A program made the position numbers and the translations under genes. A stretch of DNA of 64,000 nt, from contig NZ_REGA01000013.1 in NCBI RefSeq assembly GCF_003841505.1, positions 62,001 to 126,000 on the forward strand, read 5' to 3'. Positions 43,534 through 51,930 of the stretch are shown piece after piece. Origin of the DNA: Natrarchaeobius chitinivorans. GTDB taxonomy: Archaea > Halobacteriota > Halobacteria > Halobacteriales > Natrialbaceae. Positions within the stretch are counted from its first letter, which is position 1. Every line of letters begins with the position of its first letter. The notes under the pieces are model-generated. The model saw only the letters and a program-made list of their open reading frames with translations. It had not been told where the DNA came from and did not search any database.

Positions 43534-44202
43534 TTATCGAGAGTCGCTCGAGTCCTCGTCGTCAGGTCGCTGGTTCCCGTCGCTGATCCGCTCGTTCTCG
43601 CCGTTCGTCGAGTTATCCCCGCCGGAACTCGTCTCGGTGACTTCGTCTTCCGGACTCGTATCGTTCTCCGCTCGGTCGGATTCGTCGCGGTCGCCACGAC
43701 TGCCGTCGACCGGTCGGCCGAACACCGTTCGATCGCTGTCTGGCCCGGCGGTGGGTCCATTTCCCCCGAGTCTGTCGAGAAAAGACGGCTGTCCTACGCG
43801 ATCGGTGCTGTCGTCGGGGAGGGTGTCGATGTCGACCCGCCGAAGCGCTCCGGGAACCGTACCGTCCTCGAACACGTCGTCGCCGTCGGTGTCGTCGAAC
43901 TCCGCGTCGGACGACTCCGCCGGCGGTTCGACGACGGTTTTTCCTTCGACCAGTGAATCCCACACTTCGTCGTCGTCGTCGACTTGCTGTCTGATTTCCC
44001 GGGCCTCGTTGCGTCCTTTCTGGAAGGCCAGATCGACGAAACTCCGATCGTAGTTCGATCCCGTCTGCTCGCCGAGTCGCTCGAGTTCCCCGGGATAGGT
44101 CCGTCCGAGGCGGGCGGCGACGCCGAGTGCAAACGCTCGTCTGACGACTTCTTCGGGGTCGTCGATCGTCTGCCAGTCGGTGTCGAAGGTCTGTTCGTAC
44201 AT
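43534..44202 (-). CDS. Acidic protein of unknown function next to cheD
   Basis: A 222-residue protein. Residues 1-90 are ordered (MYEQTFDTDWQTIDDPEEVV, ALGVAARLGRTYPGELERL, AFQKGRNEAREIRQQVDDD), the rest is a very acidic, Ser/Asn-rich tail. I recall similar proteins beside archaellum/che genes but cannot name the family. Its start is one base from the stop of the upstream KaiC-like gene (both minus strand), so they are co-expressed. It may act as partner or scaffold of that ATPase. Confidence 0.7.
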   Translation of the reverse strand: MYEQTFDTDWQTIDDPEEVVRRAFALGVAARLGRTYPGELERLGEQTGSNYDRSFVDLAFQKGRNEAREIRQQVDDDDEVWDSLVEGKTVVEPPAESSDAEFDDTDGDDVFEDGTVPGALRRVDIDTLPDDSTDRVGQPSFLDRLGGNGPTAGPDSDRTVFGRPVDGSRGDRDESDRAENDTSPEDEVTETSSGGDNSTNGENERISDGNQRPDDEDSSDSR

Positions 44203-44203
44203 C

Positions 44204-44914
44204 TCAAGACTGGATCTTTTCGGTGGGGTCGACCCGAAGCCCGCGGTCGGTGAACTCGACCTTTCGGATGTCACAGTCGATTTTCGTCCCTCGCATCTTG
44301 ATTATCTGGACTCCCCTGGTCATCCCGCCGGACTCGAGGTAGTTGTGCATGAAGATGACGCCGTGGGCCAGGTAGTGACCGTCCGAGTAGGAGGTCGGAT
44401 CGGTCATCTCGGAGATCAACATCACCGTCGCGTCGGCGCGTTTGAGCTTCGTCAGGAACTTGATTAGCGCGTCGAGATCGTCCGAAAAGTAGTACTCGAG
44501 TAACATCGTCGAGTCGATGACGAGTCGGTCGACGCCTTTCGATTCGACGAACGCGACGAGCTGGTTGGCGAGGTTGTCGACGTTTTTCGGGAACTCGTTT
44601 TTGTTTCGGGACGACGGCGACAACAGCCGCTTGGCTTCGCTTTCGAAGGCGTTGAGTACTTTCACGTGCCCGGAGTTGACGGCCTGGTCGAACCCGAACT
44701 CGTAGTTGCCGAGGTCGGAGACGAGTTCCGCTTCCGTCTCGTGTAACGTCAAAAACAGCGTCGTTTCGCCGTCGATCGCTCCTTTCGTGACGAACTGCGA
44801 GCAAAACGTCGTCTTGCCGCTTCCTGGCGGGCCGCTGATTACGTACAACCGGTCTTTGAGAAGACCTCCGTCGACCAGCGCGTCGAAGCCGGGTACGCCC
44901 GTTGTGATTCGCAT
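44204..44914 (-). CDS. Single-domain KaiC/RadA-like ATPase
   Basis: About 236-238 residues with a RecA fold of the KaiC/RAD55 group. Walker A is GPPGSGKTTF, and the hydrophobic strand with acid VDRLVIDSTMLLEYYF is Walker B. Typical KaiC tail: VIFMHNYLESGGMTRGVQIIKMRGTKID (in pieces). It resembles ArlH in fold but lacks ArlH's sequence, so it is a separate ATPase. Either of two adjacent ATG codons (44914 or 44917) can start it. Its job in the che/arl locus is unknown; it could regulate array or motor assembly. Confidence 0.82.
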   Translation of the reverse strand: MRITTGVPGFDALVDGGLLKDRLYVISGPPGSGKTTFCSQFVTKGAIDGETTLFLTLHETEAELVSDLGNYEFGFDQAVNSGHVKVLNAFESEAKRLLSPSSRNKNEFPKNVDNLANQLVAFVESKGVDRLVIDSTMLLEYYFSDDLDALIKFLTKLKRADATVMLISEMTDPTSYSDGHYLAHGVIFMHNYLESGGMTRGVQIIKMRGTKIDCDIRKVEFTDRGLRVDPTEKIQS

Positions 44915-45070
44915 CATCAATGATCAGGTGTGTACCGGATAAATAAATTCTGCATTTATATTGGAAGGTTGTGGTGAAAAAATACGAACGGTGGCCAGAG
45001 ACCACCGGACTGACAGTCCTCGAGTGGTCCTGAAGGATTCACCTGCCTGCTGACGGGCGTTTTCGAGTCG

Positions 45071-47785
45071 TTATCTGAAGTTCGCGATGAGGATCCCGTC
45101 CGCACGGAGGACGACGCCGATGTCGCCGGTGATACTCTGGAACACCTCTTCGTGAGCCGTGATATCTTCGACGCCCGCGCCGACTTTGAACTGGTCGACG
45201 TCGGGTAACGAGCCGAGATCCCGTCGTTCCTCGGGCCCCAGTTCGAGGTCCTCGAGTACGACCGTGTCCTCGGCGGTCTGGCACCGAACGCGAACGGTTG
45301 CGGCTCGAGGGAGCTCGTTTCGGACGACCAGCGTTCCCGTTCCGAGTCCGAGAGCGCTTTTCGCGACGGCGATGATAGCAGCCACGTCGCCCTGCCGGAC
45401 CGCGATGGCGAGTCGCGCCCCCGTTCGACGCATCGACTGTGCGCTCTCCTCTCCCCACTCCTGTAGGGTTTGTGCGTCCGGCGGGAACTCGTCTGGGTCT
45501 TTCCGGTAGACGAGGAGTGTGATCACGGACGCGCCGACGCCGAGGACACCGAGGACGAACAGGTACCACGGAACGCCGCGCTCGTCTTCGTCGCCACTAG
45601 CATCATCTGCTGACTCGCCGTCCGTGTCGGACCCGTCCGTACTGGGCTCGCGGATCGGTTCGTCCCCGTCGTCGGGGTCGTCGACTCCAGCCGCTGTCAC
45701 CGTCTCGCTTACGTTGTCCGTGACGACCGAGAAGTTCGAGTCGTCGTCCGGCGCGTCTACCGTGGTCGTGATAGTCCGTTCTTCCCAGGGCTCGAGATGG
45801 ACGCGGTCGATGTGGACGACTTCGTCGTCGAGGATGAACTCGACGTATTGCTCGTCGGGTTCGAGTCCCGTGTTGTTGATCGCGGCGGACAGTTCGATCT
45901 CCGTGCCTGAAACGCTGTCACGATCTGCTGATAACTCCGTCACGTCGAACCTCGCGTTTTGGGCACGAACGGTTGCGTTGACCACGTCCTCGTCGTCGGC
46001 GCTGATCACGGCAACCTCGATTTTCGGTACGTCCGCATCACGCGTGCGAAACGAAAACCGCTCGATCGTTCGCTCTCCAGCCTCGAGCGAGATCGTCTTG
46101 TTGTCCCGGACGTGGTGGTTCGTCGTCCGCGGATCGTCAACACCGCGATCGATCCGCACCCGGACGTCCTGCTCGTCACCGATGTCACCTGTGTTCTCGA
46201 TCGCAACGGTGGTGATCAGTTCGTCGGTCACGTTGACCGGTTCGACGATACCCTGAATATCGACTGCAAACCCGCTGCCTGCGACGAGCGGGCGAGCGGT
46301 ATCCCCTGTTCCAGGAGTTCGCAACTCGACGTCGACTCGAGGCGCATCACCCTGCTGGGTTTCGTACGTAAACTCCGATTCGACCCACTCGTCGCCGTCA
46401 AGCTCGATCATCTGTTCGTCCACGACTTCGCCGTCGACGTAGAGCTGAACGGGGTGTTCTTGCGTGCTATCCGGAATAACGCCGGCGTATCCGATCTCAC
46501 CGGTGATAACGAGCTCGTCGCCTTCGTCAGGGTAGTTCCTGTCGATGATCTCGGCCGAGACGCTTTCGTTGTACGAGGCCTGACCGATCACGTCGACGTC
46601 GGCGGTCGACGTATTGCCTCCGTCTTGACTCGTAAGCGTGACCGTCACCTCCGGCGCATCGTCTTCGCTCGTCTGATAGGTGAACGGTTTAGTCGTGCTG
46701 TCGCCGGGCCCGAGCGTGACCACCTCCGTCGAAACGTGCGAGCCGTCGACACGGAACTCCACGAGAACGTCCTGTTCTCCCTCGGGATCGTTCCCGAATC
46801 GTTCGATCTCCGCTGTGATCTCGAGTTCGTCTCCCGCTGCGGGGGCAATCTCGTCGGCATCGGTGATCGTCACCAGGGTCTCAGCGGCGTGAATGGTGAT
46901 ATCGGTAGAATCGATCCCGCTGCTCGTTGCGCTGAATTTGGTGTCGGCGATCACCTCGGCCATCGCGGCTTCCTTATCACCCTGCTCCGTCTCGTACTCG
47001 AACTCGAGCGTCGTCGTCTCTCCTCGCTCGAGGGATAGTTCCTCTTCGACCGAACCGGTTACGTTCCCACTCTCGTCCAGGAACTCGAGAAGCACGTCCT
47101 CCTCGTCGGTTCCGTAACCGTCGTTCGTGATCTCTACCGGTATCGTCAGCGTCTCTCCTTCTCCGACGGGGTCGATCTGATCGTCGAGTATCGTGACGTT
47201 GAAATATGCCTCGTTGGCTTCCTCGAATACGATCTCGTCTCCGTCTTCGTCTCCGACGGTCGCCGGTATTCCTTCCTCGCTGGTCTCGATGACCCCGTCG
47301 TCGTTTACGACGAGCGTATCGTTGACGTAGCCGTTGGTACTGACGACCAGATTTGGATCGCCAGAAATCGTTTGGACTCTGTTGTCCTCGCTCCCGGCGA
47401 CGATCTGCTCACCGCTGTTGGCGTCGACGATCATCCCATCGTCGTCGACGATGAGCCGATCGTCACCGTTGCTCCCATCGACGCTGACGTACGGTTCCGG
47501 CGGGATCTCGTCGGCCTCACTTTCGGTAACGACGTGGTCGTCCGCGAATCGAACGACGACGTATTCGTCCTCGTGGTCGTCGTCCGCTGTTACAACGTCC
47601 GGTGTTGCGACGAATAGCCCCCCACCGATCAGCAACAGCGTGGCAACGAGTACGGCGAGTCTTCCCCAGTCGAACTCGTGACACAGTCCACCTTCTGTTC
47701 CAACCCGGCTTTCACTTCCACCTCGAGTCGCACGGCTCTCCGTTGGGCCCTCAGCCGTGCCGGTGATCGACGCCGCGCTCAGCAT
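45071..47785 (-). CDS. Large membrane protein with Ig-like (CARDB-type) repeats
   Basis: A 904-residue acidic protein. A membrane helix at about 42-60 (VLVATLLLIGGGLFVA) is followed by about 650 extracytoplasmic residues. About five beta-sandwich repeats share DEQDVLVEF-like strands, a GE/GD turn and a FxYxTxxxDAPxVxV block, as in CARDB domains. A second helix lies at about 740-760 (YLFVLGVLGVGASVITLLVY), then a 140-residue cytosolic tail ending in a small folded part (VRNELPRAATVRV, VDQFKVGAGVEDI). Several N-x-S/T sites could be glycosylated. It sits between the KaiC-like gene and a lipoprotein. Unknown function: adhesin, S-layer-linked stator or sensor are all possible. Start is uncertain. 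Confidence 0.8.
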   Translation of the reverse strand: MLSAASITGTAEGPTESRATRGGSESRVGTEGGLCHEFDWGRLAVLVATLLLIGGGLFVATPDVVTADDDHEDEYVVVRFADDHVVTESEADEIPPEPYVSVDGSNGDDRLIVDDDGMIVDANSGEQIVAGSEDNRVQTISGDPNLVVSTNGYVNDTLVVNDDGVIETSEEGIPATVGDEDGDEIVFEEANEAYFNVTILDDQIDPVGEGETLTIPVEITNDGYGTDEEDVLLEFLDESGNVTGSVEEELSLERGETTTLEFEYETEQGDKEAAMAEVIADTKFSATSSGIDSTDITIHAAETLVTITDADEIAPAAGDELEITAEIERFGNDPEGEQDVLVEFRVDGSHVSTEVVTLGPGDSTTKPFTYQTSEDDAPEVTVTLTSQDGGNTSTADVDVIGQASYNESVSAEIIDRNYPDEGDELVITGEIGYAGVIPDSTQEHPVQLYVDGEVVDEQMIELDGDEWVESEFTYETQQGDAPRVDVELRTPGTGDTARPLVAGSGFAVDIQGIVEPVNVTDELITTVAIENTGDIGDEQDVRVRIDRGVDDPRTTNHHVRDNKTISLEAGERTIERFSFRTRDADVPKIEVAVISADDEDVVNATVRAQNARFDVTELSADRDSVSGTEIELSAAINNTGLEPDEQYVEFILDDEVVHIDRVHLEPWEERTITTTVDAPDDDSNFSVVTDNVSETVTAAGVDDPDDGDEPIREPSTDGSDTDGESADDASGDEDERGVPWYLFVLGVLGVGASVITLLVYRKDPDEFPPDAQTLQEWGEESAQSMRRTGARLAIAVRQGDVAAIIAVAKSALGLGTGTLVVRNELPRAATVRVRCQTAEDTVVLEDLELGPEERRDLGSLPDVDQFKVGAGVEDITAHEEVFQSITGDIGVVLRADGILIANFR

Positions 47786-48075
47786 ACCATTCGCTCCCCT
47801 GACGTCGAACCGCGTTGCCGTAGTTGCTCTTTCATTGTTCCGTCATTGGTTCCGATCGCAACCTGATGTTGCCCAGTAAGGAATCCTGTTATATGATATT
47901 GCCGGCCCGCCGATCACCACCGTCTCCACTTTGGTCCGTCTATCACGTTCGTCTCATTTCGTTTCCGACGTCTGCTCTGGTTTCCGGACGTGTCTGTTTC
48001 GGCTCGTTCATCATTTCTCGAGTGGGCGGTGCGGCCGACGCGTTTTTCACCTACTGGTGCGAGGGATCCGATAGG
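47786..48075. promoter_or_regulatory. Divergent region between the membrane protein and the lipoprotein
   Basis: About 290 bp with AT patches (TGTTATATGATATTG near 47888-47902) that could be a TATA region. No gene supported. Confidence 0.3.
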
Positions 48076-48660
48076 ATGGCAGAACCCGGGAATACCAACC
48101 GAGGGACGCAACTAACTCGGAGACGGGCACTCGCGGTCGCGGGCACTGTCTCGCTCGGGACGACGGCAGGCTGTCTCGATTCGATCCAGGGCATCGGCGG
48201 CGGCCGAACCGAAATCGAGCCTACCGAGCCGGACGACCGCGACGACTCCGGGACCGATGGCGACCACGTGCCCACATACGGCGAATTTTACCATCATCTC
48301 GAGGACGCTGGGATCACCGTCGACGAACTTTATCACGACACCGACGACGACGATCTAATCCTGTTTTACGAATCGGACGCGGAGACGCGGGACGAGTCCG
48401 ACAACGAGATCGCCCAGATTTACATCATCTTTCGGGACGAACTCGTTGCCCGCGGCTCGGACGTCAATCACATGTACACGGAAGTGATCGGCGGATTCGA
48501 CGGACAGGTCGACGGCTGGGGTATCAATTCGGAGTGGGCCGAGGACGATCTCGCCGGTGTTGCAGAACCGATCGACGTGTGGAACGCCATCGTGGATACG
48601 ATGGTATACGAGGGCGACTCCGATCGATACGACCTTCCCGAGGACAGTACTGATCAGTGA
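48076..48660 (+). CDS. Tat-exported lipoprotein, DUF8159-like
   Basis: A 194-residue protein. Tat motif TRRRALAVAGTVSLGTTAGC with the lipobox TAGC, then an acidic linker, then a small domain (YHHLEDAGITVDELYHDTDD, QIYIIFRDELVARGSDV, NSEWAEDDLAGVAEPIDV). The domain resembles a haloarchaeal lipoprotein family, named from memory. Expected to be anchored outside the membrane. It is the only obvious secreted lipoprotein in the che/arl locus; link to the neighbouring repeat protein is inferred from position only. Confidence 0.7.
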   Translation: MAEPGNTNRGTQLTRRRALAVAGTVSLGTTAGCLDSIQGIGGGRTEIEPTEPDDRDDSGTDGDHVPTYGEFYHHLEDAGITVDELYHDTDDDDLILFYESDAETRDESDNEIAQIYIIFRDELVARGSDVNHMYTEVIGGFDGQVDGWGINSEWAEDDLAGVAEPIDVWNAIVDTMVYEGDSDRYDLPEDSTDQ

Positions 48661-48810: not shown

Positions 48811-50073
48811 ATGACGCTATTTAAACTCGAGCGAAATGCGGAATTCGAGAAGCTCATCACGCATCTCGAAGAGAGTCCGAACCCCGACATTCGAAAGCGA
48901 TCGGCCGAGATTCTCGGCAGCCTCGAGTCGGAGACCGGTGGAACGAATATCTCCCACGATGAGGTCGTCGACTCCCTCGTCGAGGCCTCGAAAGCTGACG
49001 ACGACGAGCGGGTTCGGGCGGCGGCTATCGACGCGTTGGATCAGTACGGTCAGGAAGCTCTCGAGCGGTTCATCGGTGAACTCTCCGAGCAGGATATCGA
49101 CGACGTTGCGGAGTGGAAGAAAGCACAGATACTCGCGCGCGGGTTGAACGCAGAGCAGGCTGAACTCCGGATGGCAGCCGCCACCGGTCTGGGGAGGATC
49201 GGTGAGGATAACGTGTTGAGTCAACTGGTCGCCCGGCTCGAAGACTCCGATTCGCGAGTTCGAAAACGGGCTGCTCGCGCGCTCGCACGCGTTGAATCTC
49301 CGGAGTGCGTCCCGGCACTTTCGCGGAACCTCCACGAGGATCAGTACGACGTTCGCGTCGAGGTCGCCTACGCACTCGCGGATATCGGGACGCAAAACGC
49401 GCTGGCCGAACTCGTCGAGATTGCAGACGACGATGACGAAGTGTTGCGCCGAATCGCTGTCGACGCGCTGGGACGACTCGGCAGCGTCGAAGCTGTCGAG
49501 ATACTCGCAGGTGCACTGAGTGACGAGACGGAGATGGTCCGTCGGACTGCGATGTTTTCGCTCGTCCAACTGCTTTCGGAAGCCCCCTCGAACGCGAGCC
49601 ACCAGGTCCGTGAAAAGATCGTCGACGAGCTCGAGGAGGCGAACGAACGCGATTCCGTCCAGCCGCTGATCGAGATTCTGAGTCGAAGCACGGAGACGGC
49701 ACAGCGACGTAACGCTGTCTGGTTGCTTGGACGCATCGCCGACGACGCGTTCCGAACCGAAGCTCAGGACGCGTTGATCGAGACGCTTGCCGACGACGAC
49801 GAGATGACGTCGAAGTTCGCGGCGACGAGTCTGACACTGCTCGACGGCGACGGACTCGAACAGCGGCTGATCAAACTCGTCGAAACGGAAACCAAAGACG
49901 AAGAGATGCGCGTCAAGGCGCTGTTCGTCCTCGGAAAGATCGGGGGCGATCGGTCGCGAAAACGACTCTCGAAGTTCGTCGAGCGAACCGAAAGCGATCG
50001 GTTACGAAAGCGCGGGTTTTCTGCGATTTCGAAACTCGGGGGGATGGAGATGCCAAGCGGTGATCTCGCATGA
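48811..50073 (+). CDS. HEAT-repeat (PBS lyase type) protein of the che/arl locus
   Basis: A 420-residue alpha-solenoid made of about ten HEAT/PBS repeats (LARVESPECVPALSRNL, LGRLGSVEAVEILAGALSD, GKIGGDRSRKRLSKF). Such scaffolds bind other proteins. Its stop codon overlaps the start of cheF (ATGA), so the two are co-made. Halobacterium has a HEAT-repeat protein (OE2401F) beside its CheF genes that interacts with Che proteins, from memory; this is the likely counterpart. It probably supports the link between CheY/CheF and the archaellum base. Confidence 0.85.
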   Translation: MTLFKLERNAEFEKLITHLEESPNPDIRKRSAEILGSLESETGGTNISHDEVVDSLVEASKADDDERVRAAAIDALDQYGQEALERFIGELSEQDIDDVAEWKKAQILARGLNAEQAELRMAAATGLGRIGEDNVLSQLVARLEDSDSRVRKRAARALARVESPECVPALSRNLHEDQYDVRVEVAYALADIGTQNALAELVEIADDDDEVLRRIAVDALGRLGSVEAVEILAGALSDETEMVRRTAMFSLVQLLSEAPSNASHQVREKIVDELEEANERDSVQPLIEILSRSTETAQRRNAVWLLGRIADDAFRTEAQDALIETLADDDEMTSKFAATSLTLLDGDGLEQRLIKLVETETKDEEMRVKALFVLGKIGGDRSRKRLSKFVERTESDRLRKRGFSAISKLGGMEMPSGDLA

Positions 50074-50933
50074 GCAAGTCAGAGCAAAAACTCGCGGACG
50101 TGACCGGCAAGTTCACGCAGGTGGTTCGTGACGGACGAAAGCTGTCGGATACGAACTGGTCGAACGGTCGCATCGTTCTCTCGAACAAGCGTATGGTGAT
50201 CGTCAGCAACGACGGGAAGACGACGATTCCCCTGTCGAAGATCCAGTCGATTCGTGGCCGGTACGACGTCAATCAGACGATCGCGAAAGTGTCGAACTAC
50301 ATCAGCATCAACTACGGTCAAAACGTCCATCTCATCTCGATGGAGGAGGTCAGTTCGTTCGAACTCGAGTTACAGAAAGCCATCCTCGACGGTGAGATCG
50401 TTCTGATCAAACATCCTGCAGTCAAAGGCGGCGTCGTTCAGGATGCCTCCTGGACCAAAGCCAGGGTCAAGATCAACGACGGCGTCGCGAATTTCGCCGT
50501 TGAAAACGGAAAGCTCGTTCAGATCGAAGTCGACGACGTCGGAACGGTCGAGAGCGACGAACGAACGATACGATCCTCCGAGCGACCCGTGGTCGAGGCC
50601 GAGCACACCGAAAGCGGCTCGAGCGTCCAGACCTACCTCTCCGGTTCGCCACAGAACTGTGCGATCTTGAAGTCCGTCCTCGACCGGGGGGCCGAAAAGA
50701 ACGCCTCGCAAATCGATCTCTCCGGAAAAGAAGAGGAGGTGTTGATGGCGATATACTCGGGTGTGTCTCCCTTCGAGGTCCCTGAATTCCTCGACATTGA
50801 TACGGACGACGTCGAGGAAATCTACGAGCGACTGATCGAACTCGACGTGTTAGAGGAGGTCCGCGTCCGTCGAGAGGTCGCACTGAAGCCCCGAGGACGG
50901 AACATCGCGAGCGAAGCGATGAACAACAAGTAG
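50070..50933 (+). CDS. cheF: CheF adaptor, second copy
   Basis: A 287-residue CheF-family protein. Blocks VTGKFTQVVRDGRKLSD, WSNGRIVLSNKRMVIVSNDGKTTIPLSKIQSIRGRYD, KHPAVKGGVVQDASW and the C-terminal helix-turn-helix-like VLMAIYSGVSPFEVPEFLDID match the CheF at 34051. It overlaps the HEAT-repeat gene by 4 bp. CheF transmits CheY-P to the ArlCE/D ring. Two copies may allow different partners or fine-tuning. Confidence 0.87.
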   Translation: MSKSEQKLADVTGKFTQVVRDGRKLSDTNWSNGRIVLSNKRMVIVSNDGKTTIPLSKIQSIRGRYDVNQTIAKVSNYISINYGQNVHLISMEEVSSFELELQKAILDGEIVLIKHPAVKGGVVQDASWTKARVKINDGVANFAVENGKLVQIEVDDVGTVESDERTIRSSERPVVEAEHTESGSSVQTYLSGSPQNCAILKSVLDRGAEKNASQIDLSGKEEEVLMAIYSGVSPFEVPEFLDIDTDDVEEIYERLIELDVLEEVRVRREVALKPRGRNIASEAMNNK

Positions 50934-51570: not shown

Positions 51571-51930
51571 TCAATCGTTCCCGCTGACGCTTCGGCTGAG
51601 ATCCTCCCAGACGCTACTGAGTGGCTGACCCGTTCGATCGCGTTCTTTCGATTCGATCTCGAGGGAGTCGTCCTCGAACCGTATTACGATCTCCTCGACG
51701 TTACGTCGGTAGAGCGTTTGACTTTGGCCAGTCTCTCCGAACTCGCGTACGTCTTCGTCGTCCTCGAGGAGACCGAGTTCGTTGAGCGTCTCGACACGTC
51801 GATAACTGGTGGTCACGGGAATCTCGAGTTCGTTGCTCAGCTCCTGGGCAGACTTCGGTTCGTCCGCTGAACGCAGAATGTCGGGGCTGTATTTTTTACC
51901 CAGGCTTCCCAGTACCTCGGTCGGATCCAT
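51571..51930 (-). CDS. ArsR-like winged helix-turn-helix regulator
   Basis: 119 residues with a wHTH core (VLGSLGKKYSPDILRSA, KSAQELSNELEIPVTTSYRRVETLNELGLL), a wing and an acidic tail. It is co-transcribed with the three-helix membrane protein downstream and is read divergently from the archaellin genes (330 bp apart). It could control archaellin expression, in the manner of EarA-type regulators; this is inference. No metal-binding cysteines. Confidence 0.8.
   Translation of the reverse strand: MDPTEVLGSLGKKYSPDILRSADEPKSAQELSNELEIPVTTSYRRVETLNELGLLEDDEDVREFGETGQSQTLYRRNVEEIVIRFEDDSLEIESKERDRTGQPLSSVWEDLSRSVSGND

Follow-up and report, generated by a model that had tools for sequence, protein, structure and literature searches.

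What might a large membrane protein built of Ig-like repeats contribute to a chemotaxis and archaellum (che/arl) locus? The question is raised by a gene at positions 45071-47785 of the stretch of Natrarchaeobius chitinivorans DNA analysed in this work (64,000 nucleotides, referred to as the window), whose product is called Ig904 here. An earlier note, made from the sequence of the window alone, knew of no described role for this protein, and no description of it was found among the papers listed by literature searches; as these covered open-licence articles only, this absence is not proof.

Architecture and topology of Ig904

Ig904 and its nearest relative (L031) shared 83% protein identity, and the 903 codons compared differed by 101, 72 and 247 substitutions at codon positions 1, 2 and 3 respectively, so Ig904 was considered a real protein under selection. 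The predicted start codon was supported by a methionine at the matching position in both L031 and L032. Within its own genome, Ig904 matched only itself. Fifteen Ig904 loci were assigned to named organisms: Natrarchaeobius chitinivorans, several Natrialba, Halopiger, two Halobiforma, Salinadaptatus, Natronorubrum and two Natrialbaceae MAGs; the family surveyed was taken as Natrialbaceae, and the genus of the window as that of N. chitinivorans. The gene and the parts of its product were the following:

45071-47785, minus strand: Ig904 gene, encoding a 904-amino acid type I membrane protein (open reading frame and translation, model, substitution pattern)
47618-47665, minus strand: putative N-terminal signal/anchor helix, residues 41-56 (model, low confidence, block pLDDT 45-56)
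47228-47566, minus strand: beta-rich N-terminal cap domain, residues 74-186 (model, block pLDDT 79-89)
45692-47203, minus strand: five CARDB/Ig-like domains, residues 195-698 (model, Pfam CARDB matches in the family, sequon enrichment in the ectodomain)
45500-45565, minus strand: transmembrane helix, residues 741-762 (model, low confidence, block pLDDT 57-66, and topology statistics)
45080-45346, minus strand: conserved, probably cytosolic beta-sandwich, residues 814-902 (conservation, model, fold comparison)

The AlphaFold2 model rested on 31 aligned family members; its mean pLDDT was 79.3 and its pTM 0.44, which makes the placement of the domains relative to one another uncertain. Thirty-one of the 33 copies entered the corresponding alignment (A3), leaving out L077, closely related to L076, and the two-frame copy L133; a further alignment (A5) comprised 28 of 30 rows, without L074 and L077. 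The two helices, about five external CARDB-like repeats and folded internal tail of some 140 residues proposed in the earlier note, which gave no strand, were all recovered. Both helices had low confidence in the model, yet corresponded to clear hydrophobic stretches, preceded by basic residues in the case of the signal/anchor helix of the relatives. The cap domain (approximately 110 residues) was absent from the previous description. Of the 31 family members in the alignment, 12 matched Pfam CARDB (PF07705) at E<=0.1, the best at 7.8e-14; the window protein itself had no Pfam CARDB match. Compared by fold, the whole model retrieved generic Ig arrays (complement, alpha-2-macroglobulin). An acidic linker of low confidence was modelled between the Ig-like domains and the transmembrane helix; the 142 residues that follow this helix comprised modelled helices (residues 771-811) and, over the last 90 or so, the beta-sandwich.

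N-x-S/T sequons were enriched in the ectodomains of the 31 members (357 vs. 144 +/- 11 in shuffles) but not in their tails (8 vs. 12 +/- 3), and positive residues were more frequent after the transmembrane helix than before it (K+R 2.0/0.35). These figures place the tail most probably in the cytosol and the remainder of the protein outside, where the ectodomain is probably sugar-coated. Pfam and NCBIfam scans revealed neither a HAMP nor an MCP signalling domain, leaving unsupported the earlier suggestion of a receptor, at least one of MCP type. No NCBIfam family was matched at E<=1, hence no halo_sig_pep or PGF-CTERM segment such as those of the ArtA-dependent S-layer glycoproteins.

The probably cytosolic domain

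The tail beta-sandwich was the best conserved part of Ig904: mean pairwise identity in the family was 0.59 for this domain, 0.31-0.40 for the domains of the ectodomain and 0.27 for the helices ahead of the tail domain. A strongly conserved tail together with a variable ectodomain suggests that the intracellular partner is conserved and that the exterior changes. Modelled alone, the end of the tail reached a pLDDT of 85.3 and a pTM of 0.77. There was no significant Pfam family in the 12 tails tested, and nothing significant in the PDB by sequence. Structural matches were middling: the best Foldseek E-value was 9.4e-4, the best VIA-align hit was 4jde_B (Z 9.5, rmsd 2.4, 88 residues aligned), and the transthyretins (Z about 7, rmsd 2.7-3.0, 84-86 aligned) were tied with several unrelated families. 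No single family stood out and no partner was indicated among the families in these searches.

A profile of the tail, searched against 392 genomes of the order, found strong matches in 27 genomes, all of Natrialbaceae, and weak matches (E 1e-9 to 8e-4) in 15 further genomes, located in proteins other than Ig904. At least one of the latter, in an unrelated enzyme-like protein (L104), looks like chance; three (L092, L097 and L098) were membrane-type proteins with a C-terminal domain similar to the tail. Ten of the 15 weak loci were scanned with Pfam, and in four of these (L091, L095, L096 and L101, the last below the Pfam curated cut-off) the tail-like domain was fused to HEAT repeats; ten of the 15 were also aligned (A6, leaving out L099 and L102-L105). 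Within 20 kb around each of the 15 loci, the only match to the named che/arl proteins of the window was one to the small winged-helix protein (28%), in L096. The HEAT fusions provide a weak lead towards a HEAT partner, since HEAT repeats are common and these may be unrelated to those of the window.

Several unrelated haloarchaeal proteins (L092, L096, L098, L101 and others) have a tail-like beta-sandwich, either at the end or inside the chain; some of them carry HEAT repeats and one a weak beta-helix match. The tail of Ig904 draws attention to a beta-sandwich module that recurs among proteins of haloarchaea.

Organisation of the Ig904-CheF cluster

Upstream of Ig904, the window showed the following features:

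47786-48075, no strand: intergenic region of 290 bp between the divergent Ig904 and lipoprotein genes (29 of 32 genomes with this head-to-head arrangement)
48076-48660, plus strand: lipoprotein with an RRR...AGC lipobox-like N-terminus, conserved divergent neighbour (sequence and family survey)
48811-50073, plus strand: HEAT-repeat protein, likely counterpart of Halobacterium salinarum OE2401F (domain match)
50070-50933, plus strand: CheF, PF04283, 2.1e-75 (Pfam)

The likely start of the lipoprotein is 48076 rather than the first start codon of the open reading frame (47824), and the HEAT protein is a likely counterpart of OE2401F from its position and family. By contig coordinates, Ig904 was no farther than about 6 kb from either the lipoprotein or CheF in 29 of 32 genomes, bearing out the linkage to the arl/che locus that had been noticed in the window; two genomes were unlinked (G020 and G025) and one (G402), in which the contig was cut, fell in neither class. 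The HEAT gene lay between the lipoprotein and CheF in all of the 28 linked genomes mapped, the window included (G403 being the linked genome outside this mapping); a 64-residue protein and archaellins usually followed. In one of the 28 (G401), the Ig904 copy of the cluster reads in two frames.

Ig904 was relocated but kept in G020 and G025 (about 99% complete), where the lipoprotein, HEAT and CheF genes stayed together (L122 and L123). The relocated gene of G025 adjoined two genes of the S-layer glycoprotein family (L040, 11606-14509 and 16029-18845, minus strand) with halo_sig_pep and PGF-CTERM matches. In four genomes (G015, G020, G257 and G402), Ig904 was convergent with an MCP-like gene, confirmed as MCP-type by family models in G020. 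A search with the whole Ig904 in 61 genomes, its own included, gave matches in 29: 12 had orthologues and 17 matched by the Ig repeats alone. Homologues away from arl/che, which the earlier note would have taken, together with the lack of a motility or adhesion effect, as refuting its proposals, do exist, but were limited to the two relocated orthologues and to these 17 repeat-only matches.

Second copies of Ig904 were present in genus g8 (G144, G174 and G326, loci L088, L090 and L086 respectively, and contig C10 of G401), and were unlinked to the lipoprotein, HEAT and CheF genes in the three mapped (G144, G174 and G326). The same genus includes the sole CheF-positive genome without Ig904.

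Distribution of Ig904 in Natrialbaceae

Among 125 Natrialbaceae genomes, Ig904 was present in 32 of the 33 with CheF and in none of the 92 without it (Fisher 5e-29, a value that ignores kinship among genomes). ArlH was found in 82 of the 125, 50 of them lacking CheF; considering these ArlH-positive genomes only, Ig904 was present in 31 of 32 CheF-positive and 0 of 50 CheF-negative genomes (Fisher 9e-22, kinship likewise ignored). As Ig904 was missing from all 50 genomes with ArlH but no CheF, its distribution follows the CheF-type switch and not archaella in general. Of 29 genera, 11 had CheF and the same 11 had Ig904; in genus g5 both were present in a single genome (G247), the other species having neither. 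Genome sets were compared across surveys by eye from the listed rows. The only CheF-positive exception was G010, which retained CheF, HEAT, lipoprotein and arl genes in a rearranged che/arl region; Ig904 is therefore not strictly essential.

CheA and CheB were also considered as chemotaxis markers and were dropped, since both matched most of the CheF-negative genomes: CheB 118 of the 125 genomes (85 of the 92 without CheF) and CheA 116 (83 of 92). For this reason, CheF was chosen as the marker, CheF-negative genomes are not described here as devoid of che genes, and the association of Ig904 is with CheF and not with any Che protein. Many CheA proteins of CheF-negative genomes were different: larger (open frames mostly about 1100-1600 amino acids) and about 40-54% identical to the window CheA over the matched part. 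At least five CheF-negative genomes (G380, G263, G340, G023 and G420, the last two partial) had a CheA nearer the archaellum type (66-83% identity) and no Ig904.

The lipoprotein family matched 87 of the 125 genomes (E<=0.001) and is not CheF-specific. Its strong group (E<=1.2e-40, next best 7.7e-35) comprised 32 genomes, corresponding to the CheF-positive set minus G402 (77% complete). Beyond Natrialbaceae, eight CheF loci from four other haloarchaeal families (20 kb each) had neither an Ig904 nor a lipoprotein match, and six of the eight had a HEAT gene.

One ArlH-positive, CheF-negative genome (G007) was read at its arl genes (L137, 9444-19996): the arl cluster was divergent and lacked CheF, and a lipoprotein-family gene (a weak member) and a p214-like gene lay beside three archaellins.

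Possible roles of Ig904

Archaellum reversal in H. salinarum requires both the HEAT protein OE2401F and CheF (OE2402F), which interact (PMC2666748), and CheF docks on ArlCDE and binds CheY-P (PMC9126983). How CheY-P and CheF reverse the archaellum, and what is fixed and what turns in the motor, have been described as unresolved (PMC9126983, PMC12024892). Ig904 lies in the same conserved cluster as the CheF and HEAT adaptors and has the phyletic pattern of CheF within Natrialbaceae; it differs from them in being membrane-anchored with an extracellular stalk and in having no CheF or HEAT domain. Given the common cluster and phyletic pattern, the conserved inner domain and the long exterior, the reading that fits Ig904 best is that of a component anchoring the HEAT/CheF switch to the envelope. 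We tentatively propose that it may serve the CheF-type archaellum, the one under chemotaxis control, as an accessory anchored in the envelope and specific to Natrialbaceae. The glycosylated stalk, probably long enough to reach the S-layer judging from its five Ig domains, would span the gap between the membrane and the S-layer, and the tail would dock one of the cytosolic parts of the switch, the HEAT/CheF adaptor or the surrounding assembly being the likeliest. The switch module could in this way be held to the envelope near the motor, where CheY-P can act on ArlCDE.

The near one-to-one co-occurrence with CheF, the conserved gene order, the retention of Ig904 after relocation in G020 and G025, the conservation of the tail, the topology and the published roles of the H. 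salinarum HEAT and CheF proteins were counted for the switch-accessory reading, as were the MCP-like neighbours in four genomes and, weakly, the fusions of tail-like domains to HEAT repeats. Counted against it were the absence of Ig904 from G010, the two-frame cluster copy of G401, the presence of CheF without Ig904 in other haloarchaeal families, the confinement of strong tail matches to Natrialbaceae, the fold matches, which indicated no partner, and the weakness of the HEAT lead. A bolder version, which we consider rather unlikely, is that Ig904 and the lipoprotein together make up a scaffold anchored in the S-layer, with the cytosolic beta-sandwich bound to HEAT/CheF, as an envelope-fixed element of the archaellar direction switch; if true, this would be a lineage-specific way to hold the switch still while the motor turns. 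Ig904, which follows CheF almost one to one across a family, is a concrete, deletable candidate for a missing link in archaellum reversal.

As a surface adhesin or contact sensor, the second role put forward in the earlier note, Ig904 would bind surfaces, cells or the S-layer through its ectodomain and report contact to the chemotaxis/motility machinery through its tail. The long, variable, sequon-rich Ig stalk joined to a conserved tail, the MCP-like neighbours and the two S-layer glycoprotein-family genes beside Ig904 in G025 are consistent with such a function, which nevertheless seems improbable: Pfam and NCBIfam recognised no adhesion domain beyond CARDB, and an adhesin would not need to track CheF so closely. 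Stalk proteins with CARDB repeats are common. Ig904 shares with them an ectodomain of Ig-like repeats of about 100 residues (the 12 of 31 members with a PF07705 match) and differs in its near one-to-one association with CheF loci and its conserved beta-sandwich tail behind the transmembrane helix. Among the papers listed, the one that brought together CARDB, the archaellum and chemotaxis concerned a different CARDB protein, of Thermoplasmatales (PMC10354927). None of the open-licence papers listed described an envelope protein dedicated to the CheF-type archaellum.

Equally doubtful, in our estimation, is that Ig904 belongs to the envelope, is inherited along with the arl/che cluster of CheF type and has no direct part in motility. 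This cluster is carried as a block in CheF-positive genomes, and the one ArlH-positive, CheF-negative genome read (G007) has a divergent arl cluster; as, in addition, CheF-negative genomes mostly carry other CheA and CheB proteins, co-inheritance with the cluster type could explain part of the Ig904/CheF pattern. Mere co-inheritance fits less well with the persistence of Ig904 after leaving the cluster (G020 and G025), with its restriction in genus g5 to the CheF-bearing species, and with the strong constraint on its tail.

The earlier note had also suggested a stator partner contacting the S-layer, that is, an additional S-layer anchor of the archaellum motor beside ArlF/ArlG, and this proposal was weakened: the arl linkage, the membrane-to-envelope architecture and the S-layer-family neighbours in G025 would suit it, but none of the 50 ArlH-positive, CheF-negative Natrialbaceae has Ig904, G010 lacks it, and none was seen in the eight CheF loci of other families, so that we rank it below both adhesion and co-inheritance. 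Ig904 resembles the ArlF/ArlG stator in its location in the arl locus and in the link between membrane and S-layer, which has been proposed for ArlFG (PMC12024892). It differs in its length (904 residues), in its type I topology and in its absence from the CheF-less, ArlH-positive genomes of Natrialbaceae, and it matched no ArlF/ArlG family in Pfam or NCBIfam at E<=1.

The neighbouring KaiC-like gene

Ig904 was flanked, as had been reported, by the lipoprotein on the plus strand and a KaiC-like ATPase on the minus strand:

44204-44920, minus strand: KaiC-like ATPase, adjoining Ig904 only in the genus of the window (domain match, locus comparison)
43534-44274, minus strand: 246-amino acid protein (p246) beside the KaiC-like gene, the pair lying beside CheA in G020 (L134) (locus comparison)

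KaiC-like orthologues were present in 27 of the 125 Natrialbaceae. The gene was adjacent to Ig904 in four genomes, all of the window's genus; in the other 23, either some 30 kb or more separated the two genes or they were on different contigs. It was not found in five genomes with Ig904: four of genus g8 and G403 (55% complete). The restriction of the adjacency to one genus and the location of the KaiC-p246 pair beside CheA in G020 indicate that two blocks, KaiC-p246-CheD/CheA and Ig904-lipoprotein-HEAT-CheF, meet in the window. A role of Ig904 as membrane partner of the KaiC-like ATPase, for which the common strand, the distance of 150 bp and the same order in three other genomes of the genus might speak, is very improbable and was set aside, conservation arguing against such a partnership in the adjacency limited to one genus, the five Ig904 genomes without the KaiC-like gene and the position of the latter with p246 beside CheA in G020.

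CirA is a KaiC-like regulator of motility in Haloferax volcanii (PMC13286277), and the window likewise has a KaiC-like gene in its arl/che locus. The window protein was 25-28% identical to the KaiC-like proteins compared, which come from the vicinity of arl genes of other haloarchaeal families (L124, L125, L128 and L130) and were 64-90% identical among themselves; it probably belongs to a KaiC lineage other than CirA.

A further small gene of the window (51571-51930, minus strand), next to the archaellin genes, encodes a 119-amino acid winged-helix protein. It resembles, in position and size only, CsmR (HVO_1209), a 13 kDa protein encoded upstream of arlA1/arlA2 in Haloferax (PMC13286277).
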